From assembly GCF_001971725.1 (NCBI RefSeq), contig NZ_CP019388.1:1922001-1986000 (forward strand): a stretch of 64,000 nucleotides of DNA, in the 5' to 3' direction. A program made the position numbers and the translations under genes. Under the pieces are notes generated by a model. The model saw only the letters and a list, made by a program, of their open reading frames with translations. It did no database searches and was not told the DNA's origin. Within the stretch, counting starts at the first letter, position 1, and the number at the start of each line of letters is the position of its first letter. This DNA comes from Winogradskyella sp. J14-2 (GTDB lineage: Bacteria > Bacteroidota > Bacteroidia > Flavobacteriales > Flavobacteriaceae). Shown here in pieces: positions 22,959 to 34,555 of this stretch.

Positions 22959-23873
22959 ATGCTTCAAGTTAAAAATCTAAGTTTCGGTTATACTAAAAAA
23001 CAAATCCTAAAGAATATAAATTTTTCTGTTAATTCTGGGCAGAATCTCGCTATTATTGGAGAAAGCGGATCGGGCAAAAGTACACTCCTTAAGCTTATTT
23101 TTGGGGAATATAACTTAGATAAAGGACAGATTTTATGGAAAAATACTGAAATTCTTGGTCCAAAATATAATTTGGTGATAGGCTATGATTTTATGAAGTA
23201 CGTTACTCAAGAGTTTGATTTAATGCCGTATACTTCTGTTAAAAATAATATTGGTAAACACCTATCTCGTTTTTACCCAAAAGAAAAGGAAAAACGCGTT
23301 AACGCACTTTTAAAAGTTGTAGAGTTAGAGGCATTTGCAAATGTAAAGGTAAAAACACTCTCTGGCGGACAAAAGCAACGCGTAGCACTGGCAAAGGCTT
23401 TGGCAAAACAGCCCGAAATCATTTTATTAGATGAACCTTTTAGTCATATTGACAATTTTAAAAAACAATCCTTAAGACGTAATGTTTTTAAGTACCTTAA
23501 AGACCACAATATTACTTGTCTAGTAGCTACCCACGACAAAAATGATGTACTCGGATTTGCAGATAACATGTTAGTGCTACACAACTCTAAAATACTTATT
23601 ATAGATACTCCTCAAAATTTATACAACAATCCTAAGCTACCTCTAATTGCCTCTTTTTTTTGTGAATTCAACGTTATTGAGCCCTTCGGAATTGTTTATG
23701 CCCATCAGCTTAAAATCGTTAAAGCGTCTAACTTAAAAGCAATTGTAAAGCGCGCGTATTTTAATGGTAATTCTTGGCTAATTGAAGCAGCACATGATTC
23801 TCAAACCATTTTTATTAAGCATAACAAAGAATTAACTAAAGACACTACCATTAACTTCAAGGTCAATGATTAA
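22959..23873 (+). CDS. Orphan ABC transporter ATP-binding protein
   Basis: A 304-residue ATPase subunit. It has Walker A GESGSGKST (about 35-43), Q-loop VTQEFDLMPY, signature LSGGQKQR (about 136-143), Walker B IILLDEP and the switch histidine in ATHD. The spacing resembles the importer-type MalK/PotA/FbpC class, and the tail of about 75 residues (GIVYAHQLKIVKASNLKAIVKRAYFNGNSW) resembles a TOBE-like regulatory domain. No permease or binding protein lies nearby, so the substrate is unknown. Its TAA abuts the convergent exporter gene with no space between. It sits directly behind a strong terminator with its own promoter. Confidence 0.85.
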   Translation: MLQVKNLSFGYTKKQILKNINFSVNSGQNLAIIGESGSGKSTLLKLIFGEYNLDKGQILWKNTEILGPKYNLVIGYDFMKYVTQEFDLMPYTSVKNNIGKHLSRFYPKEKEKRVNALLKVVELEAFANVKVKTLSGGQKQRVALAKALAKQPEIILLDEPFSHIDNFKKQSLRRNVFKYLKDHNITCLVATHDKNDVLGFADNMLVLHNSKILIIDTPQNLYNNPKLPLIASFFCEFNVIEPFGIVYAHQLKIVKASNLKAIVKRAYFNGNSWLIEAAHDSQTIFIKHNKELTKDTTINFKVND

Positions 23874-26126
23874 CTATCTATCAAACTTCTTCAATAAAGC
23901 CGGTAAATAAAAGATATCCGTAATCAATGCGATGGCTACTGTCACGGCACACAGCAACCCAAAATCTTTAACGGATGGTGTTGCACTAGAGGCAATAATT
24001 AAAAAACCACCAACCAAGGCGATGGTTGTGGAAAATAAAGCTCCGCCTGTATAGCGTATGGCATTGTTCATTCGTAATTCAGGAGGGCCAACAATGGTTT
24101 TACTTTTTCTGTACTTGTAAACTAGGTGTATGGTATCATCCATAGCAATTCCCAACATAATTGGTGTAATCATGGCTGTAGTGACATCTAAGGGAATATG
24201 TAACAGACTCATAAATATCGCCAATATCGCCAACGGTAAGATGTTAGGAATTAATACCAGTAGTGTAGTTCTTAAACTTCTTATAAAAATCCAGAGGCAT
24301 AAAAACGCCACAAAAAATGCAGCAAAAAAGGATTTAAACTGTGTTTCTAGGATAAAGTTGTTTAATTGTGCAAAAACCACAGCAAACCCGTTAATTCTTA
24401 GATTATAATCCTTCGTATTAAAAGTGGTTTCAAAATCACGCTTTATATCATCTAACACTTGTTCTAGTTCAGAGGTACGCATTTCCATTAAAGTTAAGGT
24501 AAAGCCTGCGGTAGTGAGATCTTCTGAAAACAATTTAAAAAAACTATTCTCGTTAGCATCAACTTCTGATAGTGTGCTTTTCAATTTATCTTCAGATACA
24601 TTAGATTGAAATAAAACCGGAGTGCGCTTCTCTAAGAAAGACTTGATTGTAATGACCGAAACTGGTGAAGAAATTAAAGGATTATCTTCAAGTTTATTCT
24701 GAAATGTTTCTAACTTTTCAATGGCATCCTTACTTAAAATAATAGCTCCATTTGTTGTAGAAATATTTAGCTGTAGTCTGTTACTACCTCCAAGTTCTAC
24801 CTCAACTGTTCTTAAATCTTGTTTAGCTTGTCCTTCCGCAAGTAGATCTCTAGAATTTGTGTCTATATCCACTTTAAAGATAGAATACATACCAAATAAT
24901 AAAATTAGCGTAAATACGGTAATGATACTCGCTTTATATTGAGATGTAAAGCCATTAAGCCATGTAATAAACTTGTCTTGTGAGAATTGCTTTAGGCTTA
25001 ATAAAGGTTTAACCTTTACAAAATTTAAATTCATAAAACTGAACCCTATAATGGTAATTACATAGACTAAAATAAAACTCAATACAAGTCCAATACAGGT
25101 AAAAACACCCATATTTTTAAAGGCAGGTAAAGGGGACAAAAACAGCGCAAAATAGCCAACAAAAGTGGTTAGCGTTGTATAAAAACAAGGTGTGAGACTT
25201 TTTCTAATAGCAAGTGTCAATAAATCTACTTTACTTAAGGTTTTATTATTAAGGCCTTCTTTATGATAAATATTAATAATGTGTACCGCATCACTAACGC
25301 TATAAACCATGAGGATTGTAGGTATTAACATGGAAATCATATTTAAAGCAAAACCTAATGAGGTAATAAGCCCAAATAATAAACTAACAGGAATCGCTAC
25401 GGACAACAATGCAATATAGAGATAACGCTTACTTGGTAATAAAAATAAAAGTAAGACCGTGATAACCAGAACCGTTAAAATTCCAAAAGTTAAACTCTCT
25501 TTATAAATACCCTTGCTGTAGGCTTCGTTTAAGACTGGTGGGCCAGTTAAATAATAATTTGAATACGATTTATCAATTACATTTCTAATCTCTACTGCAA
25601 TATCCTGCCTTTGTTCTTCGATGGTTGGTGTAGGCTTCATCTGTATGTAAAAGAACTGGTGCTTATAATCCTTTGTTACTAATTGAGACGTGATATTTGG
25701 TAATTTAGAAAACAAGCTTTTTAAACCTTTTTCACTACGCCTGGGATTGTACAAATCATCAAATAGTATCTTGTCATTAGCATAAATTGGGTACTTAGCT
25801 TTTGCGATACTAAAGGTGGTCTTTACATAATGAAGAGAATCAACAGACGCATGCAAATTCTTTAATTGACTTATTTCTGCTTGTCCAATAGCATTTTCAA
25901 CAGGCAACATGGCAATAAAAATTTCGTCAGACCCAAAATTTTCCTGAAAGTCTATATACGCTTTATAACTGGGATCGTCTTCTAAAAACCATATCGATAA
26001 AGAGTTATCTACACTGAGTTTATTGAGTGTTTGATGGCCTGATAACGCCATTAACACAACAAGAATAGCAATAATTACAATTCTGAATTTTATAATGGAT
26101 TGTATTATACTTTTTAATCTATTCAT
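23874..26126 (-). CDS. RND/MMPL-family exporter of the type III PKS operon
   Basis: A 750-residue inner-membrane protein with two repeats of the RND fold: a TM segment near 10-30, a large periplasmic loop, then five clustered TMs, repeated (second half from about 400). GILTVLVITVLLLFLLPSKR, SMLIPTILMVYSVSDAVHI and TPIMLGIAMDDTIHLVYKY are typical of MMPL/HpnN-like lipid exporters driven by the proton gradient. ATG 26126 was chosen because it lies one base after the stop of the upstream PPTase gene; a longer frame would overlap that gene by 32 bases. As last gene of the biosynthetic operon it probably exports or flips the lipid product. Confidence 0.88.
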   Translation of the reverse strand: MNRLKSIIQSIIKFRIVIIAILVVLMALSGHQTLNKLSVDNSLSIWFLEDDPSYKAYIDFQENFGSDEIFIAMLPVENAIGQAEISQLKNLHASVDSLHYVKTTFSIAKAKYPIYANDKILFDDLYNPRRSEKGLKSLFSKLPNITSQLVTKDYKHQFFYIQMKPTPTIEEQRQDIAVEIRNVIDKSYSNYYLTGPPVLNEAYSKGIYKESLTFGILTVLVITVLLLFLLPSKRYLYIALLSVAIPVSLLFGLITSLGFALNMISMLIPTILMVYSVSDAVHIINIYHKEGLNNKTLSKVDLLTLAIRKSLTPCFYTTLTTFVGYFALFLSPLPAFKNMGVFTCIGLVLSFILVYVITIIGFSFMNLNFVKVKPLLSLKQFSQDKFITWLNGFTSQYKASIITVFTLILLFGMYSIFKVDIDTNSRDLLAEGQAKQDLRTVEVELGGSNRLQLNISTTNGAIILSKDAIEKLETFQNKLEDNPLISSPVSVITIKSFLEKRTPVLFQSNVSEDKLKSTLSEVDANENSFFKLFSEDLTTAGFTLTLMEMRTSELEQVLDDIKRDFETTFNTKDYNLRINGFAVVFAQLNNFILETQFKSFFAAFFVAFLCLWIFIRSLRTTLLVLIPNILPLAILAIFMSLLHIPLDVTTAMITPIMLGIAMDDTIHLVYKYRKSKTIVGPPELRMNNAIRYTGGALFSTTIALVGGFLIIASSATPSVKDFGLLCAVTVAIALITDIFYLPALLKKFDR

Positions 26127-26127
26127 A

Positions 26128-26691
26128 CTAAATAACTGCAAATGCACCATAATTTCCATGATGCGTTAGGCTAACATTAATTTCTTTTAATCCGAATTTA
26201 ACTCTTGGCACTCCAAATTCATCTGTTACAACTTGTGCTAATTCACCCTCAGTTTGAAATCTTTTTTCTATTAATCTCAAAAGTGAAGTTTTCAACACTT
26301 TACTCTGTATTCTTGAGTTTTTAAAATCAAACTTTACAACATGAGACGTTAACTTATGTTCATTTAAACGCGCTTCTGACATAATATAGTGGGACGTCAC
26401 TTTAGTTTCAACATAACACTTAAAATCTTGAAAAATCACTGCACCTCTAAGCTTATCAATCTTACATTCAAAATGTTTTGGTTTATAAAAACGGCTTGGG
26501 TGTAATTGTGTGTACAATTTATATGCCGCCTCTTTCATGCTCCAAAGCTGCCACACCATTAGAAATTGATTTGTTGACTTATAAATTAATTGCTGTTCTT
26601 GTAGTGTAAAAAGTTTATCTAAAAATCGTGGGCGTTGCCAATTTGAAGCTTGTTTGGCTTCCTTTAAATCAATGATGTCGTTACCGACCAC
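26128..26691 (-). CDS. 4'-phosphopantetheinyl transferase superfamily protein
   Basis: This enzyme moves 4'-phosphopantetheine from CoA to the serine of a carrier protein. The 187-residue protein has MVGNDIIDL at the N-terminus (Mg-binding Asp) and WSMKEAAYK (the WxxKEA motif, about residues 51-59), plus a C-terminal SLTHHGNYGAFAVI strand. Length fits a compact AcpS-like/Sfp-like enzyme. Its start overlaps the last base of the acyl carrier protein stop, so it very likely activates that carrier. Confidence 0.9.
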   Translation of the reverse strand: MVGNDIIDLKEAKQASNWQRPRFLDKLFTLQEQQLIYKSTNQFLMVWQLWSMKEAAYKLYTQLHPSRFYKPKHFECKIDKLRGAVIFQDFKCYVETKVTSHYIMSEARLNEHKLTSHVVKFDFKNSRIQSKVLKTSLLRLIEKRFQTEGELAQVVTDEFGVPRVKFGLKEINVSLTHHGNYGAFAVI

Positions 26692-26942
26692 TAAGCTTTA
26701 AGTTTAGTATTTACAATGGCCATTGCAGATTTTACATCTAACATTTGTTCCATATCCTCATTTTCTAAACGAATATCAAACTCATCTTCTATATCTAAGA
26801 TGATGTCCACAAGATTGGCAGAGTTGATTTTTAAATCCTTAACAAAGTCAGTCTCTTCAGTTAAATTTTTGAAGGCCTCTTCATCTTGAATATAAGGTGC
26901 CACAATGGCCTTTAATTTGGCAATTAACTCATCGTTTTTCAT
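26691..26942 (-). CDS. Acyl carrier protein
   Basis: An 83-residue acidic four-helix carrier. The modified serine is Ser41 in KINSANLVDIILDIEDEFD; the usual DSLD motif is changed to NSAN, marking it as a specialised carrier rather than the housekeeping AcpP. It follows the ketosynthase gene by 20 bases and overlaps the PPTase gene by one. It probably carries the growing acyl chain that primes or feeds the type III PKS in this operon. Confidence 0.92.
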   Translation of the reverse strand: MKNDELIAKLKAIVAPYIQDEEAFKNLTEETDFVKDLKINSANLVDIILDIEDEFDIRLENEDMEQMLDVKSAMAIVNTKLKA

Positions 26943-26962
26943 AGCGTTTCTTTACAGCAAAG

Positions 26963-28237
26963 TTACGCTATAAATCTCTTAAATAAAACACAAGTATTAA
27001 CATCACCAAAACCAAAACTGGCCTTAGCTATAACATTAAAATTAAAGTCGAGTTTTTGTTGAACAATGCATTGTGGTTTTACTAACTTTTCTATTTCTGA
27101 AAGCAAATCTTCACAGTTAATGTTTGGAGCTATAAATTGATTTTGTAGCTGAATAATACTTGCTACACATTCAATGGCGCCTGCAGCGGCTAAACAATGT
27201 CCAACCATAGATTTTGTAGAGTTGATAAAAGGAAATGCATCACCTTTTCTGTTTAAGGCTTTGGTCCAATTTTTAATTTCTAAACCATCTTTAGATGTCG
27301 CCGTTAGATGCCCATTAATGACATCGATGTCTGCGGCATCTATACCAGAATTTAGTACTGCGGTTTTAATGCAGCGCTGAACAGCCTCAGGATTAGGTGC
27401 GGTTAAAGTGCCTCCTTGACGCTGTCCGCCTGAATTAACCTCTCCACCCATAACCTCGGCATAAATAGTGGCACCACGTTCTAAGGCACTTTCTAGCGAT
27501 TCTAAAACTATAGCACCTGCACCACTGCCAGGTACAAAACCAGATGCTGAGGCACTCATTGGTCTTGATCCTTTTTCCGGAAAATCATTGTGCTTATAGG
27601 TCATTACACGCATAGCATCAAACCCTCCCCAAATGTAGGGTCCGTGATCGCTACAACTGCCAACCAACATGCGTTTAGCCCTACCGTTTTGTATGCGTTC
27701 AAAACCCATTAAAACAGCTTCTGTACCTGTTGCGCATGCTGAAGAGTTTGTGGTGACTTGATTTCCTAGTCCTAACATACCGCTTAAAAAAGCACTGACT
27801 CCACTTGCCATGGTTTGTAAAACAACTGAACTTCCTAGTCGTCTTACATTACCTTCATCGAGCTTGTAAATTGCCTCTCTAAATTTGTCTACACCCGAAG
27901 TGCCTGTTCCAAATATTAAACCTGTTTCATAATCTATTTCACTTTCTGGATGCATTTCAAAGCCTGCATCTTTCCAAGCATCTATACCAGCAATACAGCC
28001 ATATAAAATACCTGAACTATTAAAGCTGCGTAACTGTAATTCTGTAAAATATTTTAATTTTAATTCCTCTGAAATCTCAGGAATCCCACCAATCTGACAT
28101 GAAAAATTTAAGTCTTTCAATTCTTGATGAAAAGTAATTCCTGATTTACCATTTTTTAATGCTTCAGTAAACTTAGAAACACCTACGCCATTTGGTGCAA
28201 CAACTCCTAAACCTGTTATGACGACTCTTTTTTTCAT
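26963..28237 (-). CDS. Beta-ketoacyl-ACP synthase, KAS II (FabF) type
   Basis: This enzyme condenses an acyl thioester with malonyl-ACP. The 424-residue protein begins KKRVVITGLGVVAPNG and has the full catalytic triad: Cys168 in SSACATGTE, His310 in NGHLTATSKDG (normally NAHGTST) and His347 in VGHCLAAAGAIE. No chain-length-factor partner is present, so it is probably a homodimer. Its start overlaps the dehydratase stop as ATGA. It forms, with the ACP, dehydratase and SDR genes, a dedicated elongation set. Confidence 0.92.
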   Translation of the reverse strand: MKKRVVITGLGVVAPNGVGVSKFTEALKNGKSGITFHQELKDLNFSCQIGGIPEISEELKLKYFTELQLRSFNSSGILYGCIAGIDAWKDAGFEMHPESEIDYETGLIFGTGTSGVDKFREAIYKLDEGNVRRLGSSVVLQTMASGVSAFLSGMLGLGNQVTTNSSACATGTEAVLMGFERIQNGRAKRMLVGSCSDHGPYIWGGFDAMRVMTYKHNDFPEKGSRPMSASASGFVPGSGAGAIVLESLESALERGATIYAEVMGGEVNSGGQRQGGTLTAPNPEAVQRCIKTAVLNSGIDAADIDVINGHLTATSKDGLEIKNWTKALNRKGDAFPFINSTKSMVGHCLAAAGAIECVASIIQLQNQFIAPNINCEDLLSEIEKLVKPQCIVQQKLDFNFNVIAKASFGFGDVNTCVLFKRFIA

Positions 28238-28671
28238 GCTTTCAACATTCCAGATATTACGCCTCTTGCTATTAATTTGCCTGTTTCATTTAGCATTTTT
28301 ACTCGGCATTTTAATTTATTAAAACGGAACACTTCTTTTTCTGAATGAACAATAACCTTTTCTCCTGGTAAAACCGGCAAATAAAAATCCATCTGGTGCG
28401 ATGTTAATGCTACTTGAGGCTTTTGACTATTCTGTAAGTCCTCTTTTAGCAAATAAATACCTAAACAGACCAAACCAATCTGAGCCATGCACTCTGTAAG
28501 AATGACTCCTGGTGTTATAGGGTTATCCTTAAAATGGCCTTCATAAAATGACTCATCGTCTTTAAATGTATAGTGGCCTAAAATGCTATCTTCAGTAACT
28601 GTATCAATACCGTCTACAAATAAAAATGGTTTTTGATAAGGTAACAGTGTTATGATTTCTGATACTTTCAT
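28234..28671 (-). CDS. FabZ-like 3-hydroxyacyl-ACP dehydratase (hotdog fold)
   Basis: A 145-residue single hotdog domain. EGHFKDNPITPGVILTECMAQIG carries the likely catalytic His46 and Glu60 of FabZ/FabA enzymes, which remove water from 3-hydroxyacyl-ACP. The central helix and PGV turn are clear. It lies one base after the SDR gene start side and overlaps the ketosynthase start by four bases. It is separate from the housekeeping fatty-acid genes in the window. Confidence 0.9.
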   Translation of the reverse strand: MKVSEIITLLPYQKPFLFVDGIDTVTEDSILGHYTFKDDESFYEGHFKDNPITPGVILTECMAQIGLVCLGIYLLKEDLQNSQKPQVALTSHQMDFYLPVLPGEKVIVHSEKEVFRFNKLKCRVKMLNETGKLIARGVISGMLKA

Positions 28672-28672
28672 A

Positions 28673-29467
28673 CTACCTTAAATGTTCACCTCCATCTACG
28701 GGAATTACTGCACCTGTGATCCAGGATGCTTCGTCCTTACTCAATAAGTAAACAGCGTTAGCCGCATCGTTAGGCGAGGTAAGTCGCTTATTTGGGTTAC
28801 GTTTTAATGTATGTTCTATTATTTTTTCACTATCTGGAATCATACGTAATGATGCTGTATCGGTTACACCAGCCTGAATACAATTTGCTTTTATACCAAA
28901 GGGAGCAAACTCTAAGGCAATATTTCTTGTAATAGCCTCTAAGGCAACTTTTGCGGCCGATACTGCTGCATAATTTTGCCAGGCTTTGGTATTACCTTCA
29001 CTTGTAAAACTCAAAATACGTGTGTCTTTTGCAAATAGTTTTGCCTCAAATAAGGCTTTAGTCCAATCGTATAAACTTATAGCCATAGCATTAATCGTTA
29101 AGGCAAAATCGTCGTTTTTAAGAACAGGGTTTTCTTGAGATACCATGGGCTTTAAATTCCCTTTTGCAACACTATGTACTAAAACTTTAATTTTACTATT
29201 AAGGCCTAGTATTGATTTCAATTCTTCTATTGTAGTTTCTCTTTTTTCGGGTTTAAATGCATCACGATTAAAAGATTTAAACTTAATATTCTCCTTTTTG
29301 ATAGATTCAAATTCAGCATTAATAGCTTCCTCTTGCATTTTTGAGTTACGATGAACAACACAAATATTCATGCCGTGTTTAGCCAGCTTTTTCGCTGTGG
29401 CTAATCCCAGACCAGAGCTTCCGCCGAGAATTAAAGCCCATTCGTTTTTATCTTGAAATTCTTTCAT
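28673..29467 (-). CDS. SDR oxidoreductase, enoyl-ACP reductase (FabL/FabI)-like
   Basis: A 264-residue Rossmann-fold protein with ALILGGSSGLGLATAKKLA (11-29) and the end VDGGEHLR. The catalytic residues are Tyr166 and Lys173 in NYAAVSAAK, spaced Y-X6-K as in FabI/FabL enoyl reductases rather than Y-X3-K of ketoreductases. It would reduce enoyl-ACP, or may be the only reductase of the pathway. A 56-base gap with two palindromes separates it from the type III PKS gene, the largest gap within the operon. Confidence 0.88.
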   Translation of the reverse strand: MKEFQDKNEWALILGGSSGLGLATAKKLAKHGMNICVVHRNSKMQEEAINAEFESIKKENIKFKSFNRDAFKPEKRETTIEELKSILGLNSKIKVLVHSVAKGNLKPMVSQENPVLKNDDFALTINAMAISLYDWTKALFEAKLFAKDTRILSFTSEGNTKAWQNYAAVSAAKVALEAITRNIALEFAPFGIKANCIQAGVTDTASLRMIPDSEKIIEHTLKRNPNKRLTSPNDAANAVYLLSKDEASWITGAVIPVDGGEHLR

Positions 29468-29489
29468 TTTTATATGTATTTATGAGATA

Positions 29490-29526
29490 CTGAAACATGT
29501 TCAGCCTGACAAAATAAATTTTGTCA
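29490..29526. promoter_or_regulatory. Two adjacent palindromes between the type III PKS and SDR genes
   Basis: tgacaaaat-aa-attttgtca (29507-29526) is a perfect 9-bp inverted repeat that includes the PKS stop codon. ctgaaacatgttcag (29490-29504) is a second palindrome around ACATGT. They could be an operator pair or an RNA stem that tunes downstream expression; there is no T run after them, so a terminator is less likely. Confidence 0.4.
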
Positions 29527-30576
29527 CCACTCTAATAAAATGCGCTGTGCTGAAAACCCAGGTCCAAAACTCAGCATTATACCTTTATCACCTTTCGGTA
29601 GGTTTCTATCCATAAAGCGTTCTAAAACATACATTACTGTGGCACTGCTCATATTGCCATAGCGTCGCAAAACTTCTTTTGTGTCGTCTATGTTTTTTCC
29701 TAAGGCACCAAATAAATCTTCAACAGTTTGTACTATTTTTTTGCCACCTGGATGAAATACCAAATGGTCTATATCCTCAATTTTTAATCCGTTTTTTGCT
29801 AAAAATGGATGAATAATTTTTGGGAAATGATCTGCAATGGTCTGAGGTACAGATTGGTCTAATACCATTTGCAAACCTGTGTTGCGTAATTTAAAACCCA
29901 TCATGTGGTCTGCATTATAAAAATGATACATGGCTTCATCCTTAATTTCTGGACCAACCTCGTCCTCATAGGACGACATAATTACGCTTGCGCAACCATC
30001 ACCAAAAATGGCCGCACTCACAACATTAACCATTGAATAGTCATTGAGTTGAAACGTTGCTGTTGGCGATTCTACCGCAATAACTACAGCGCGCTTGTTT
30101 GGGTTCGCTTTCAAAAAATTCTTTGCGTATAAAATACCCGAAACACCTGCTGCACAACCCATTTCTGTAACTGGCAATCGTACTACATCTTGTTTCATTT
30201 TTAGGCGATTTATTAAATACGCATCTAAAGATGGAATCATAATGCCTGTGCAACTCACAGTGATTATATAATCGATGTCGGTAGGTTCTAAATTGACTTT
30301 ATTTAAGGCCTTTAGTAAACTTTTCTGTGCTAATTCAATAGATGCTGTAATGTAAATTTCATTTTTTTCTTCAAACGATGTTTTAAGAAATACTTCTTCT
30401 GCATCCATTATAGAATACCGTTTATCTACAGCTGCATTTTCAAATATTTTAAGAACTTTACGCTTAAAACGTTCTTCTTGACCTTCTAGCCATAACTCGA
30501 CATAAGGTAAAATGTCCTTGGTCTCTCTTGTGTATTTTGGCAGTTGCTTTGCAACTGATGTAATTTTTACAGCCAT
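29524..30576 (-). CDS. Type III polyketide synthase (chalcone/stilbene synthase family)
   Basis: A 350-residue homodimeric enzyme that extends an acyl starter with malonyl-CoA and cyclises it to a pyrone or resorcinol without an ACP on the chain. The triad is complete: Cys141 in TEMGCAAGVSG, His275 in FHPGGKKI and Asn308 in YGNMSSATV. The C-terminal SFGPGFSAQ loop is present with Ser for the first Gly. VSCTGIMIPSLDAYLINRL is typical of bacterial alkylresorcinol/alkylpyrone synthases. It lies directly after the methyltransferase gene, an order recalling the actinobacterial PKS-methyltransferase-flavoprotein operons. The product is not predictable from sequence alone. Confidence 0.94.
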   Translation of the reverse strand: MAVKITSVAKQLPKYTRETKDILPYVELWLEGQEERFKRKVLKIFENAAVDKRYSIMDAEEVFLKTSFEEKNEIYITASIELAQKSLLKALNKVNLEPTDIDYIITVSCTGIMIPSLDAYLINRLKMKQDVVRLPVTEMGCAAGVSGILYAKNFLKANPNKRAVVIAVESPTATFQLNDYSMVNVVSAAIFGDGCASVIMSSYEDEVGPEIKDEAMYHFYNADHMMGFKLRNTGLQMVLDQSVPQTIADHFPKIIHPFLAKNGLKIEDIDHLVFHPGGKKIVQTVEDLFGALGKNIDDTKEVLRRYGNMSSATVMYVLERFMDRNLPKGDKGIMLSFGPGFSAQRILLEW

Positions 30577-31287
30577 TTAGGTTTTTATTAGCCATTGGTA
30601 ACGAAAAGCCCATTTCCAACGAATTTCTGATTTGAGATTTAATTCTTTTGATAGTTGTTTTAATTCTTCTCTTTTAAAAGCTCTTAAAATTGAGGTTAAT
30701 CCATCTTTAACAATCATAGGATTTGAAATCGCTAATCCTAATAATTTAAACAAGCCATAAGCCAATTTATTGCGATGTAAGTCGTTGATTACAATGCCTA
30801 AATTAGCGTTGGTCGCTATTGTTTGTAATAGCAAACGAATTTCTTCTTCATCAAAATGATGTAAAAACAATGTAGAAAGCGCAATATCGTATTTTAAGCG
30901 TTTAAATTCATCAGAAAATATATCCACATTGTTAAATGTCAATTCATCATAATCTAATGATAACTGGTTGGCATAATCTATAGCATCTTGATTAGCATCT
31001 ATGCCTATGAGTTTAAACTGATAGTTGTTTTGTCTTCCGAAGTTGGCAATCAACCTAAGAATATCTCCATGACCACATCCTAAATCAATAATGGTATATG
31101 TTTTGTCTTTGGGTTGCCCTTCTAATAATTGCTTTATACCTTTTAATGTAATACGATTGCCACCAAGCCACTTGTTGATTTTTCCGAGTTTATCTAGTGT
31201 ATCGCGCAACAACTCGCCCTTCATGGTAAAATCATCCATGAGTTCGGTATCCTTACTTCTATGTGTGGTATCTATAAATAAACTCAT
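30577..31287 (-). CDS. Class I SAM-dependent methyltransferase of the PKS operon
   Basis: A 236-residue soluble enzyme with SAM motif I IIDLGCGHGDILRL at about 66-79, an acidic residue in IGIDANQDAIDYA (motif II) and STLFLHHFDEEEI (motif IV region). It abuts the PKS gene (stop next to start) and overlaps the FAD gene by ATGA, so it very likely methylates the PKS product at carbon or oxygen, as tailoring methyltransferases do in phenolic-lipid operons. Confidence 0.88.
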   Translation of the reverse strand: MSLFIDTTHRSKDTELMDDFTMKGELLRDTLDKLGKINKWLGGNRITLKGIKQLLEGQPKDKTYTIIDLGCGHGDILRLIANFGRQNNYQFKLIGIDANQDAIDYANQLSLDYDELTFNNVDIFSDEFKRLKYDIALSTLFLHHFDEEEIRLLLQTIATNANLGIVINDLHRNKLAYGLFKLLGLAISNPMIVKDGLTSILRAFKREELKQLSKELNLKSEIRWKWAFRYQWLIKT

Positions 31288-32411
31288 TTTACTTGCATTG
31301 GTTTACCATGTGTCATTTTAATTATCTGTGGTATTAGAAACGGAAACCACCTTAATAGCATCAATAATTTTGGTGCTAACCAATCTTGCCTAAATAAATG
31401 AGCAATGGTATGTCCCGCTTTAAGCCGCAAACTAAAGGTACTTTGCCAACGCTTGCTGTACTCTTTTTCTAGCTCTAAACGTGTTGTGATTTTTTTTTGA
31501 AGATACGCAATAATCAAATCTGATGCTAATTGTGCACTTCTTATTGCCATTGCCATTCCGTTGCCGCACAATGGATGAATCATACCTGCGGTATCGCCAC
31601 ACATTAAAATGTGGTTTTCGACCGGACTTTTAGTTTTAAAAGAAATCTGACTTATGGTTAATGGCTTTTCAAACTCTGGTTTAGAATTTTTAAATACGGC
31701 TTTTAACTCCGAGTTTTTAAAAAGAACATCCTCTTGAAAGGCTTTAATATCCTTATGCTTTTTAAAGGCTTCAAAATTTGTAATATAACATAAATTGATG
31801 TGATTGTTTTCAACCTTAGACACTCCGCAATAACCACCTTTAAAATTATGAAGGGCAACCTTGTCGTTTGGGAATTTGCCAGATACATGTATTTTCACAC
31901 CCAGATAAGGTGACTTTTTTTTAATAAAATCGCGTTGAAACTGCACATCTAAATTAGAGCGTTTACCAAAAGCTCCGATGACAATTTTAGACCTAAGAAT
32001 TTGGTTAGATTTTGTCTCTACTATAAACGCATTGGCATTAAAGATTACATCAACAACAAGATCTTGAAGCACCAAAGCTCCATCTTTAAGTGCTAATTGA
32101 TACAGCTGATAATCCATTTCATAACGACTCATCCCAAAACCACCTAAAGGTAATTTTGCTTCTATTTTCTTGTTGTTATGCGTGGTTAACTCGAACTTAG
32201 AAATGCGTTTTGCACCAAAATCGTACGGATTGAAACCCAAAGCATTTAAATATGGCAAGACTTCATTTGAAATATATTCACCACAAACTTTATGTTTGGG
32301 GTAAGCGTTTTTTTCGATAAGTAGTACTTTAAATTTAGCTTGTGATAAATGAATTGCACTTGCTAATCCTGCTAATCCACCACCTACAATAATAACATCA
32401 AATTGTTGCAT
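31284..32411 (-). CDS. FAD-dependent oxidoreductase/monooxygenase (geranylgeranyl-reductase-like)
   Basis: A 375-residue flavoprotein with the dinucleotide motif DVIIVGGGLAGLASAIHL at 5-22, ending in the acidic residue of LLIEK, and the second FAD motif CGDTAGMIHPLCGNGMAMAI. PKHKVCGEYIS is typical of the geranylgeranyl reductase/halogenase-like subgroup. In phenolic-lipid operons such enzymes hydroxylate the ring to give quinols; reduction of double bonds is an alternative. Its stop overlaps the methyltransferase start. Confidence 0.88.
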   Translation of the reverse strand: MQQFDVIIVGGGLAGLASAIHLSQAKFKVLLIEKNAYPKHKVCGEYISNEVLPYLNALGFNPYDFGAKRISKFELTTHNNKKIEAKLPLGGFGMSRYEMDYQLYQLALKDGALVLQDLVVDVIFNANAFIVETKSNQILRSKIVIGAFGKRSNLDVQFQRDFIKKKSPYLGVKIHVSGKFPNDKVALHNFKGGYCGVSKVENNHINLCYITNFEAFKKHKDIKAFQEDVLFKNSELKAVFKNSKPEFEKPLTISQISFKTKSPVENHILMCGDTAGMIHPLCGNGMAMAIRSAQLASDLIIAYLQKKITTRLELEKEYSKRWQSTFSLRLKAGHTIAHLFRQDWLAPKLLMLLRWFPFLIPQIIKMTHGKPMQVK

Positions 32412-32417
32412 TGTCTT

Positions 32418-32927
32418 CTACAGGTCTTGATAATGAACGACGGTTATTTTTACTGTTTTTCCCAACACAAAACTGCCGCCACCAACACCAAAATCCTTTC
32501 GGTTAATTTCAAAATTGGCAGTGATTTTATAGTAACCCTTTATCTTTTGAAGCATAACAGGTATGCTAATCGTTTTTGTTTTTCCTTTGATAGTAAGATT
32601 GGCAACAACCTCAAAAGAACCTGTGTCTAGTTTATTGATTTTGGTGCTTTTTAAGGCAATGGATTTATGTTTTTCTGCATCAAAATAATCTTCTTTTAGA
32701 ATATGTTCATCTCTACTATCAATACCTGTTTCAATGGATTTAACCTCAATGGTACTTGTAATACGCTCTAATCTTCCTTCCTTAGAAATATTGGCCTGGA
32801 TTGCAAACGTGTTAAAATGGCCATCTACATTGACGCCTACATTTTTAATAACAAAATCAATACTTGACTCTTGGGTATATCCAATAAAATATAAACAAAT
32901 AAAGAAGAGCGTTATAAAGCGTTGCAT
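32418..32927 (-). CDS. YceI-family periplasmic lipid-binding protein
   Basis: A 169-residue exported protein (signal peptide QRFITLFFICLYFIGYTQ) with the YceI lipocalin-like barrel: FVIKNVGVNVDGHFNTF, SIETGIDSRDEHILKEDYFDAEKH, ANLTIKGKTKTISIPV and EINRKDFGVG. Structurally known YceI proteins hold isoprenoid quinone-type lipids. It is the first gene of the biosynthetic operon, six bases before the flavoprotein gene, which suggests it carries the amphiphilic product or a quinone partner in the periplasm. Confidence 0.88.
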   Translation of the reverse strand: MQRFITLFFICLYFIGYTQESSIDFVIKNVGVNVDGHFNTFAIQANISKEGRLERITSTIEVKSIETGIDSRDEHILKEDYFDAEKHKSIALKSTKINKLDTGSFEVVANLTIKGKTKTISIPVMLQKIKGYYKITANFEINRKDFGVGGGSFVLGKTVKITVVHYQDL

Positions 32928-32993
32928 AGATAGAAAAATTTCTTTGTTAAGTTACTGCACAATTAAAACAACTTAAAACCATTTAACGTTTTT

Positions 32994-33443
32994 CTAGAGC
33001 ACCTCTAAAATTGAAATTTCTTGATTTCTAAATTGAATTGCGTCTCCCTTGCTTTTAGCCACGAGTAATTTACCCATTGGAGTTGCTGGCGAAATAGCAT
33101 AAAACTGTTGACTATTAGTCTTTAATTCTCCTACGCTAACAGCCATAAAATAATTTGCTTGTGAGGTAAAAACAATACTCCCAAGAGTTACAATAGTAGT
33201 CTCTATTTCAGGATTGATTTTATGTAGTAATTTGAATTGCTTTTGGATATCAGCTAATTGCTGTCCTGCTTTTTCTCGCTCCAATTGAAGCATCGCTCTT
33301 CCTGTTTCGTGCTTATCACCAGCACTACTTTTGGTTTCAGATAAAAGACTGTTTTGAATATCCGTAATGGTCTTTTGAATAACTTTTAAACGTTGGTTTA
33401 ATAGTTCTTCACATTTACAATATAGGTTTTGCTTAAGGCTCAT
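32994..33443 (-). CDS. GreA/GreB C-terminal-like protein with coiled coil
   Basis: A protein of 149 residues starting at ATG 33443 (MSLKQNLYCKCEELL), chosen because it overlaps the flavoprotein stop as ATGA; the longer frame would run 75 bases into that gene. An N-terminal helical hairpin (about 5-75; SSAGDKHETGRAMLQLEREKAG) precedes a small beta domain (LGSIVFTSQANYFMAVSVGEL, ISPATPMGKLL) like the FKBP-like domain of GreA/Rnk. Such proteins bind RNA polymerase. I recall flavobacterial homologues being labelled 3-oxoacyl-ACP synthase, but no thiolase motif exists here. Confidence 0.75.
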   Translation of the reverse strand: MSLKQNLYCKCEELLNQRLKVIQKTITDIQNSLLSETKSSAGDKHETGRAMLQLEREKAGQQLADIQKQFKLLHKINPEIETTIVTLGSIVFTSQANYFMAVSVGELKTNSQQFYAISPATPMGKLLVAKSKGDAIQFRNQEISILEVL

Positions 33444-34555
33444 TCTAATAAGTCTGCTAAGTCTCTGCCAACTATGCTTCCAATAGCGACTCCCATGCCT
33501 CCTAAACGTACACCACAATAGACGTTATTACTTAATTGCTTTACAATAGATTTTTTTTGTTGCCCAACACCCATAATGCCAGACCAGCGATGGTCAATCT
33601 CAAAATCAATGTTAGGTATTATTGTGGTTTTTAATAATTCTTCTAATTTATCTTGAATGATTGTGGTTTCACCAAATTCTGAAGTTTCTTCAGCTTTAAA
33701 ATCGAGATTTCGTCCACCACCAAATAGGATTCTGTTATCTATATTTCTAAAATAATAATAGCCTTTATCTAAATGAAACGTTCCTTTGATTTGAAGATTA
33801 TCTATTGGTTTTGTAACTAAAACCTGGGCTCTAGCTGGTTTAACAGGTTGCTTTATTAATTGTGATGCAAAGCCATTGGTTGCAATTAGTACCTTATTAG
33901 ATTTTAAGTCAAAATTTAAGGTCCTAATATGTACTACGTCATTATAATCTTCAATAGCTTTAACTTGGCAATTATTTAAAATTTTTACTCCTGAGCTTAT
34001 GGCTTTTCTTAAAAGTGCATCCATCATTTTACCAGTATCTATCTGACCTTCAAACTTATTAAAACTTACTTTTTTCTTAATGTTTTTAAATTTGAAATGG
34101 TTATCAACAAATGAAAACACATTAGTGTTAAAGATGGGATAAAGTAGCTTATTTACCTTTTCTTGATTGTTTAAGCAGCTACTGTAGAGTTCATTATCAG
34201 AATCTAAAAATAATTCATAACCACCTAATTCTTTATAGTCTATGGTATGATCTCCCAATGTTTCACGAAGTAATTGTAAGCCGTTAATTCGTTTTTTAAT
34301 GAGATCAACCACCTCATCTTCTGAATGACTTTTTAGATCATCCATTATTTCACTAAGGCTTCCAAAACAAGCAAAACCTGCATTTTTAGTACTGGCTCCT
34401 TGTGGTAGCATTCCTTTTTCAAGAATCAACACTCTAGAATTTGGGTGTTGCTCTTTTAGTCGTATTGCACAACTAAGTCCAACAATTCCGCTACCAATAA
34501 CTGTGAAGTCTACATTAGATAACCACGTTTTTATTTCCCAATACGATAAATTCAT
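33440..34555 (-). CDS. FAD-dependent amine/D-amino acid oxidoreductase (DAO family)
   Basis: A 371-residue flavoprotein with FTVIGSGIVGLSCAIRL at about 17-33 and LILEKGMLPQGASTKNAGFACFG, the DAO-fold FAD pattern, and a C-terminal DHRWSGIMGVG...CGVRLGGMGVAIGS. It oxidises an amine or hydroxy acid substrate, unspecified here. Its start follows a terminator, and it is translationally coupled to the GreA-like gene downstream. Confidence 0.85.
   Translation of the reverse strand: MNLSYWEIKTWLSNVDFTVIGSGIVGLSCAIRLKEQHPNSRVLILEKGMLPQGASTKNAGFACFGSLSEIMDDLKSHSEDEVVDLIKKRINGLQLLRETLGDHTIDYKELGGYELFLDSDNELYSSCLNNQEKVNKLLYPIFNTNVFSFVDNHFKFKNIKKKVSFNKFEGQIDTGKMMDALLRKAISSGVKILNNCQVKAIEDYNDVVHIRTLNFDLKSNKVLIATNGFASQLIKQPVKPARAQVLVTKPIDNLQIKGTFHLDKGYYYFRNIDNRILFGGGRNLDFKAEETSEFGETTIIQDKLEELLKTTIIPNIDFEIDHRWSGIMGVGQQKKSIVKQLSNNVYCGVRLGGMGVAIGSIVGRDLADLLE

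Follow-up and report, generated by a model that had tools for sequence, protein, structure and literature searches.

A type III polyketide synthase operon linked to a carrier-protein cassette in Flavobacteriaceae: a candidate route to a phenolic lipid

From where does a type III polyketide synthase (PKS) take its starter when its gene shares an operon with an acyl carrier protein (ACP) and with enzymes of fatty acid synthesis? The question is raised by ten minus-strand genes at positions 23874-32927 of a 64,000-nucleotide stretch of Winogradskyella sp. J14-2 DNA, hereafter the window (C1:1922001-1986000, contig NZ_CP019388.1, in a genome made of a single 3.35 Mb contig). In the order of transcription, they encode a YceI-like protein (Y), a flavoprotein (F), a methyltransferase (M), the type III PKS (T), a short-chain dehydrogenase/reductase (SDR; S), a dehydratase (Z), a beta-ketoacyl-ACP synthase (KAS; K), an ACP (A), a 4'-phosphopantetheinyl transferase (PPTase; P) and an MMPL transporter (R); the letters are used below for genes and products alike. 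The original prediction, made from the window alone, had listed these ten reading frames, all of which are present and match the families named. The comparison of genomes described here shows that the PKS part and the fatty acid part of the operon are almost always retained or lost jointly. On this basis, I consider it rather probable that the product of the operon is a tailored phenolic lipid, either an alkylresorcinol or a methylated or hydroxylated derivative, formed from an acyl-ACP starter built by the cassette.

Joint retention of the polyketide synthase and the acyl cassette

In a sample of 299 Flavobacteriaceae genomes (the family sample), 104 gave a match to T at E <= 1e-30, and 103 of these matches are orthologs, with about 54% identity or more; the other, in genome G072, is a distant PKS of 32% identity. 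K was detected (E <= 1e-110) in 101 of the 299 genomes, all of which also carry T, and in none of the 196 genomes that lack a PKS ortholog. Three genomes have T only: G072 with its distant PKS, G138, in which the operon is interrupted near a contig end, and G293, which is 76% complete and has the gene on a short contig. This very tight co-occurrence bears out the proposal that the PKS comes with carrier-protein enzymes of its own. Fisher's exact test gives p of about 1e-78 for the co-occurrence of T and K, a value that treats related genomes as independent, which they are not. In a wider sample of 395 genomes from the phylum (T threshold E <= 1e-40), K accompanies the T ortholog in all 33 genomes that carry one.

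Two kinds of observation are less open to the objection of kinship than the Fisher value. The first is the pattern within genera: g18, g21 and g31 each include one sampled genome with both genes and another with neither, g132 has two genomes with both and one with neither, and g128 sixteen with both and seven with neither. The second is provided by two genomes, G190 and G144, in which the operon has been cut exactly between S and Z and in which F-M-T-S and Z-K-A have both been retained, about 356 kb apart or on a different contig. By eye, the Z-K-A half of these split operons (L248, L249) lies between a gene for an 800-residue protein and a nitroreductase-like gene.

Gene order was followed in 60 loci fetched from the 104 genomes, of which 59 are counted, the locus of G072 (L073) being left out. 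F, M and T are contiguous in all 59, and F-M-T-Z-K-A stand in a fixed order in 56. As for the other three, L040 holds a split operon, L063 lacks Z, and the operon of L082 is interrupted close to the end of a contig. Among the 59 loci, S was detected in 52, P in 24, Y in seven and R in six. A second set, L119 to L198, comprises the best 80 of at least 580 named loci, that is, the closest relatives; it shares some contigs with the family set, the counts of the two sets are not additive, and the 148 loci used below for residue motifs contain such repeats. The six-gene core is complete in 73 of these 80. Contig ends truncate five of the remaining seven (L120, L175, L178, L180 and L195), L153 repeats the interrupted case, and K is in pieces in L161. 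P, Y and R accompany 74, 32 and 17 of the 80, respectively. Saprospiraceae, Cyclobacteriaceae and Crocinitomicaceae records are found among the best 80 of the at least 580, as are 21 loci, 15 of them labelled Winogradskyella, whose PKS is at least 85% identical to that of the window.

Some individual loci deserve mention in their own right. In L161 (Lacinutrix neustonica), F, M, Z and K each matched in several pieces, as though frameshifted or mis-assembled, and in G150 (L072) the PKS is split over two open frames (57% and 68% identity). The PKSs of L119 (labelled Flagellimonas lutimaris) and L120 (labelled Muricauda sp. CP2A) are 91% identical to that of the window, which is inside the Winogradskyella range; transfer or contamination is possible.

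The recurring core is F-M-T-(S)-Z-K-A, with PPTase, YceI and MMPL as accessory genes. The ten genes had originally been taken as one unit; the ten-gene form is found in a minority of loci, and a single conserved ten-gene operon was rejected in view of the variation of Y, P and R among loci, so that the conservation across genomes anticipated for the whole set holds for the core and not for all ten genes. Likewise, carriage of the product by YceI and its export by the RND protein, also part of the original prediction, cannot be a general step because both genes are rare among the family loci. An upstream gene for a fused 2-oxoacid dehydrogenase-like E1 (cluster c7) was considered as the supplier of the starter; it is near the operon in 36 of 60 sources and was rejected as local synteny, because it usually lies inside a run of other conserved neighbours (the names of clusters c7, c8, c9 and c10 were assigned by eye, not by family search).

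The catalytic residues of the core are intact. T has the chalcone/stilbene synthase fold with a Cys-His-Asn triad, and its Cys141, His275 and Asn308, already recognised in the window, occur without exception in the 148 sequences aligned, that of the window among them. A PF02797 search gave one match above cut-off in its own genome and matches in three of 14 control genomes. K keeps Cys168, His310, Lys342 and His347 in 140 of 140 sequences, and its earlier naming as KAS II is correct as to the fold family; the sole other KAS match in the same genome is 37% identical. His46 and Glu60 of Z (142 of 142), Ser41 of A (141 of 141) and Ser156, Tyr166 and Lys173 of S (118 of 118) are likewise conserved throughout. 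The plain label SDR can be refined, since S has a Y-x6-K site and the FabL-type enoyl-ACP reductases as its nearest relatives, on which grounds a role as ketoreductase was rejected. FabL is its best NCBIfam hit, at 155 bits against a cut-off of 328, which makes S a relative and not a member of the equivalog. The cassette therefore provides for condensation, dehydration and enoyl reduction and includes a carrier. The elongation set first proposed stands as a group of linked carrier-protein enzymes; it is incomplete, having no ketoreductase and lacking S in some loci. A relocation of S in such genomes was rejected: of 12 genomes searched, the ten whose operon lacks S gave no match above 34% identity, whereas the two S-bearing controls gave 79% and 73%.

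Table 1. Genes of the operon, with positions in the window, in order of transcription.
Gene	Product	Position	Strand	Family matches and structures
Y	YceI-like lipid/isoprenoid-binding protein, accessory	32418..32927	-	PF04264 5e-29
F	Flavin adenine dinucleotide (FAD) oxidoreductase, UbiH / geranylgeranyl-reductase / halogenase fold; likely ring hydroxylase	31284..32411	-	
M	S-adenosylmethionine methyltransferase	30577..31287	-	PF13847/PF13649 above cut-off; PRK06202 family under its cut-off
T	Type III PKS, Cys141-His275-Asn308	29524..30576	-	PF00195/PF02797
S	SDR with Y-x6-K, FabL-like enoyl-ACP reductase, facultative	28673..29467	-	NCBIfam FabL below cut-off; PDB 3oic (best PDB hit)
Z	FabZ-like 3-hydroxyacyl-ACP dehydratase	28234..28671	-	PF07977
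K	Beta-ketoacyl-ACP synthase, cassette-specific family	26963..28237	-	PF00109/PF02801
A	ACP, phosphopantetheine Ser41 within NSANLVDI	26691..26942	-	PF00550
P	PPTase, accessory	26128..26691	-	PF01648
R	MMPL/RND (HAE3-like) exporter, accessory	23874..26159	-	PF03176; TIGR00921 below its cut-off

The genes are tightly packed, with junctions between -32 and +56 bases. Read 5' to 3', these are +6 (Y-F), -4 (F-M), 0 (M-T), +56 (T-S), +1 (S-Z), -4 (Z-K), +20 (K-A), -1 (A-P) and -32 (P-R). The MMPL gene more likely starts just beyond the PPTase stop, at about 26126, than at 26159, as suggested by the local sequence and by the median length of seven MMPL proteins (750 residues). Promoter-like sites were uninformative (37, against 39.3 in shuffles). 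Terminator-like sites in 23600-33700 are commoner than expected (13, against 5.9 in shuffles, sd 2.4).

A separate polyketide synthase clade and a portable cassette

A methyltransferase, an oxidoreductase and a type III PKS also stand together in the hidABC (hierridin) operon of cyanobacteria, and F-M-T, contiguous in every family locus counted, resembles such hid-like triads. The relation was examined in the phylum sample, where T has 102 matches: 33 reach at least 65% identity and the others do not exceed 37%. Thirty of the distant loci were fetched. Seven have M and F near T, mostly in the order T-M-F, with one F-T-M and one in which only a weak F was found, and 23 have T alone; neither Z, K nor A was present near the distant T in any of the 30, within the 8-15 kb seen.

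The three proteins shared with the triads differ in how far they have diverged. Mean identity between the operon type and the Bacteroidota T-M-F loci is 27.6% for T, 37.1% for F and 31.1% for M, while within the operon type it is 70%, 50% and 44%, respectively, T being the best conserved. In trees of a matched set, the stem separating operon type from triads measures 0.66 for F, about 0.8 for M and about 10 for T, long stems of this kind being possibly saturated. When lone PKSs are included, the T stem is 2.37 and the T of the operons forms one clade (100/100) apart from the T of the triads, the comparison being with Bacteroidota loci and not with HidC itself. As judged by these alignments and trees, the F-M pair is common to hid-like triads in Bacteroidota and the PKS is a separate, sharply bounded clade. 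Since the F and M stems are short and the T stem long, it appears that F and M were retained and the PKS either replaced or remodelled; the data fit either.

The cassette also occurs with other partners. The phylum sample has 38 genomes with K, of which 33 also carry T and five (48-52% identity) lack a T ortholog; a second query returned the same 38. In two of the five (L252, L253), a related S-Z-K-A-P block adjoins dialkylresorcinol (dar) genes in divergent orientation; the neighbours pass the cut-offs for DarB, DarG and DarH in L252 and look alike by eye in L253. In the other three (L254, L255, L256), Z-K-A, with S in L256 alone, lie beside a GNAT-like gene and a glycosyltransferase (tested in L254 and L256, by eye in L255), and L256 also has a BioF/serine palmitoyltransferase-like gene at a distance of about 4 kb; these three loci possibly encode a new glycolipid pathway. 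One genome, G675, carries both a T-M-F locus and a dar-linked cassette. The ring-forming enzymes of the two systems are distinct: T scores 31 bits against the DarB family, whose cut-off is 550, and for none of the ten operon proteins is a Dar family the best hit. The tree of K separates the three contexts, with weak support (73/96) for the group linked to the type III PKS.

The (S)-Z-K-A(-P) block is portable across lipid systems. A broader proposal, which I put forward tentatively as a serious possibility, is that it would constitute a portable Bacteroidota acyl-ACP supply plugged into at least three lipid systems (type III PKS, dialkylresorcinol and GNAT-like/glycosyltransferase), and that, as it arrived in Flavobacteriaceae, a hid-like operon had its PKS replaced or profoundly remodelled, giving a carrier-protein-dependent ring-former in about one-third of the sampled family genomes and an undescribed class of phenolic lipid.

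Proposed pathway and its alternatives

In the pathway that I favour, K, Z and, where present, S would act on the dedicated carrier A to give an acyl chain that stays on A. Ketoreduction would be borrowed from the primary FabG and, where S is missing, enoyl reduction from the primary FabI. T would take acyl-A directly as its starter, add malonyl units and cyclise the chain, the ring product being presumably a resorcinol and not a pyrone, which M would methylate and F hydroxylate, perhaps in that order. In the lineage of the window, P would in addition activate A, YceI would handle the lipid in the periplasm and MMPL would export it. Such a route to a phenolic lipid is probably unusually self-contained. 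It is supported by the joint presence of K and T, the fixed gene order, the retention of both halves of split operons and the invariant active sites; by the occurrence of a related S-Z-K-A-P block beside dar, another resorcinol-forming system; and by the nature of the partners, since CylI, for which ACP-bound substrates are reported, is among the folds nearest to T, and F-M-T is a hid-like set.

Several observations weigh against this pathway. None of the ten genes codes for a ketoreductase, and 29 of 148 loci have no S between T and Z. The K family occurs without a T ortholog in five genomes of the phylum sample, and in L063 (genome G118), where T, S and K are otherwise contiguous, Z is absent between S and K and F is broken into two pieces. 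The two split genomes may represent a single event, as their Z-K-A halves share flanking genes, and co-retention is evidence of a common pathway and not of direct acyl transfer. Moreover, T and its counterparts in the hid-like triads compared share only 27-31% identity, too little for homology to imply a resorcinol; the residue that decides between resorcinol and pyrone in ArsB/ArsC could not be placed on T; and the alkylpyrone synthase PKS11 is as close to T as CylI in both sequence and fold.

One way to read the absence of a ketoreductase and the dispensability of S is that the product of F-M-T is an ordinary hid-like methylated alkylresorcinol derived from primary acyl-coenzyme A (acyl-CoA) or acyl-ACP, S-Z-K-A merely enlarging the pool or biasing its chain length or branching, as a helper and not as the obligate donor. 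Triads without nearby Z, K and A exist in Bacteroidota, and like operons are described in cyanobacteria and planctomycetes, which means that the chemistry of the triad needs no cassette. However, a mere helper would sit uneasily with a joint presence and absence that is near-perfect and persists after physical separation, and the PKS clade of the cassette operons differs from that of the cassette-free triads. I regard this explanation as unlikely, though far from negligible.

The nature of the ring is a distinct issue, and the proximity of PKS11 makes a pyrone a live rival: T would then produce an alkylpyrone, and M and F would decorate the pyrone or an open polyketide. PKS11 and CylI are the solved structures nearest to T. 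PKS11 is the best sequence match among them, and VIA-align, applied to the model of T (predicted local distance difference test score, pLDDT, 85), also ranks it first, about one Z unit above CylI. Foldseek gives the opposite order, with CylI first, and F and M have relatives in hid-like loci, which leaves the pyrone rather unlikely and the phenolic product the preferred one.

It is improbable that F is a halogenase and the product a halogenated phenol. The folds closest to the model of F (pLDDT 86) are indeed flavin halogenases, followed by hydroxylases and reductases, and the first six Foldseek matches (Bmp2 twice, ChlB4, PltA, FasV and Mpy16), mostly titled halogenases, are 15-20% identical to F. 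However, WxWx[IV]P, a halogenase motif, is absent from all 153 F sequences, six of which come from T-M-F loci, the hydroxylases and reductases that share this fold score almost as high, and the best NCBIfam hits are to geranylgeranyl-reductase and UbiH families, all below cut-off; the assignment was rejected on the first two of these grounds. Finally, that Z-K-A is a separate fatty acid adaptation module merely co-located with the PKS operon, as the five genomes having the block without a T ortholog might suggest, is very improbable, since in those five the block adjoins dar genes (two) or the GNAT-like gene and glycosyltransferase (three), and since the PKS is present in every K-bearing genome of the family sample, linked or not.

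Significance and comparison with known systems

Type III PKS clusters belong to the commoner types of natural-product cluster reported for Flavobacteriaceae; they account for 10.74% of the clusters in a study of 2,680 genomes (PMC10734526) and for 9% in a second survey (PMC7440613). In the open-access literature available, surveys name such clusters without a product, and no product of a flavobacterial type III PKS cluster was found. The present results suggest that much of this class may correspond to one pathway with a dedicated acyl supply. They name a minimal gene set, F-M-T-Z-K-A, predict a chemical difference between S-plus and S-minus strains, offer the split-operon genomes as a natural experiment and reveal a fatty acid sub-cassette that occurs with several different lipid pathways.

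The Streptomyces srs operon also combines a type III PKS with a methyltransferase and a flavoprotein; it is not known to have an ACP cassette. The pairing of M and F matches that of known alkylresorcinol operons, as originally proposed. In the hidABC operon of cyanobacteria and in an operon of Planctomycetota, a methyltransferase, an oxidoreductase and a type III PKS likewise go together, the PKS of the planctomycete operon yielding alkylresorcinols; co-expression of the other two genes of one planctomycete species led to the addition of a single methyl (PMC8086630, PMC10896814). Relatives of F and M also stand beside other Bacteroidota PKSs. The available text of these papers mentions no carrier-protein cassette, and the present operon has the order F-M-T.

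Acyl-ACP use by type III PKSs is reported for Gcs, SCO7671, ArsB/ArsC and CylI (PMC6274091, PMC8086630). In the ars system of Azotobacter, the fatty acid synthase ArsA is linked to ArsB/ArsC and its ACP-bound fatty acid is passed directly to the PKS (PMC6274091). Fatty acid synthesis genes are similarly linked to the PKS in the present operon, Z, K and A lying with T in 56 of 59 loci and being co-retained with it, and a comparable hand-off would take place. By contrast with ars, the enzymes are free-standing here, the ACP has its own gene instead of being a synthase domain, and a ketoreductase is lacking. In the cylindrocyclophane pathway, a type III PKS, CylI, is fed an ACP-bound chain and forms a resorcinol, while the available text mentions no F-M pair (PMC8086630). 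The dar/flexirubin clusters share with the operon a related S-Z-K-A-P block, as in L252 and L253; they differ from it in that no type III PKS of the T family adjoins the block and that the Dar enzymes make the ring. No description of a free-standing ACP/KAS/dehydratase cassette tied to a type III PKS was found in the open-access literature available, from which subscription journals are mostly missing. The triad is known, and so is a type III PKS fed by a synthase; what appears to be new in the flavobacterial operon, to judge from this literature, is the combination of a type III PKS with a free-standing ACP/KAS/dehydratase cassette.

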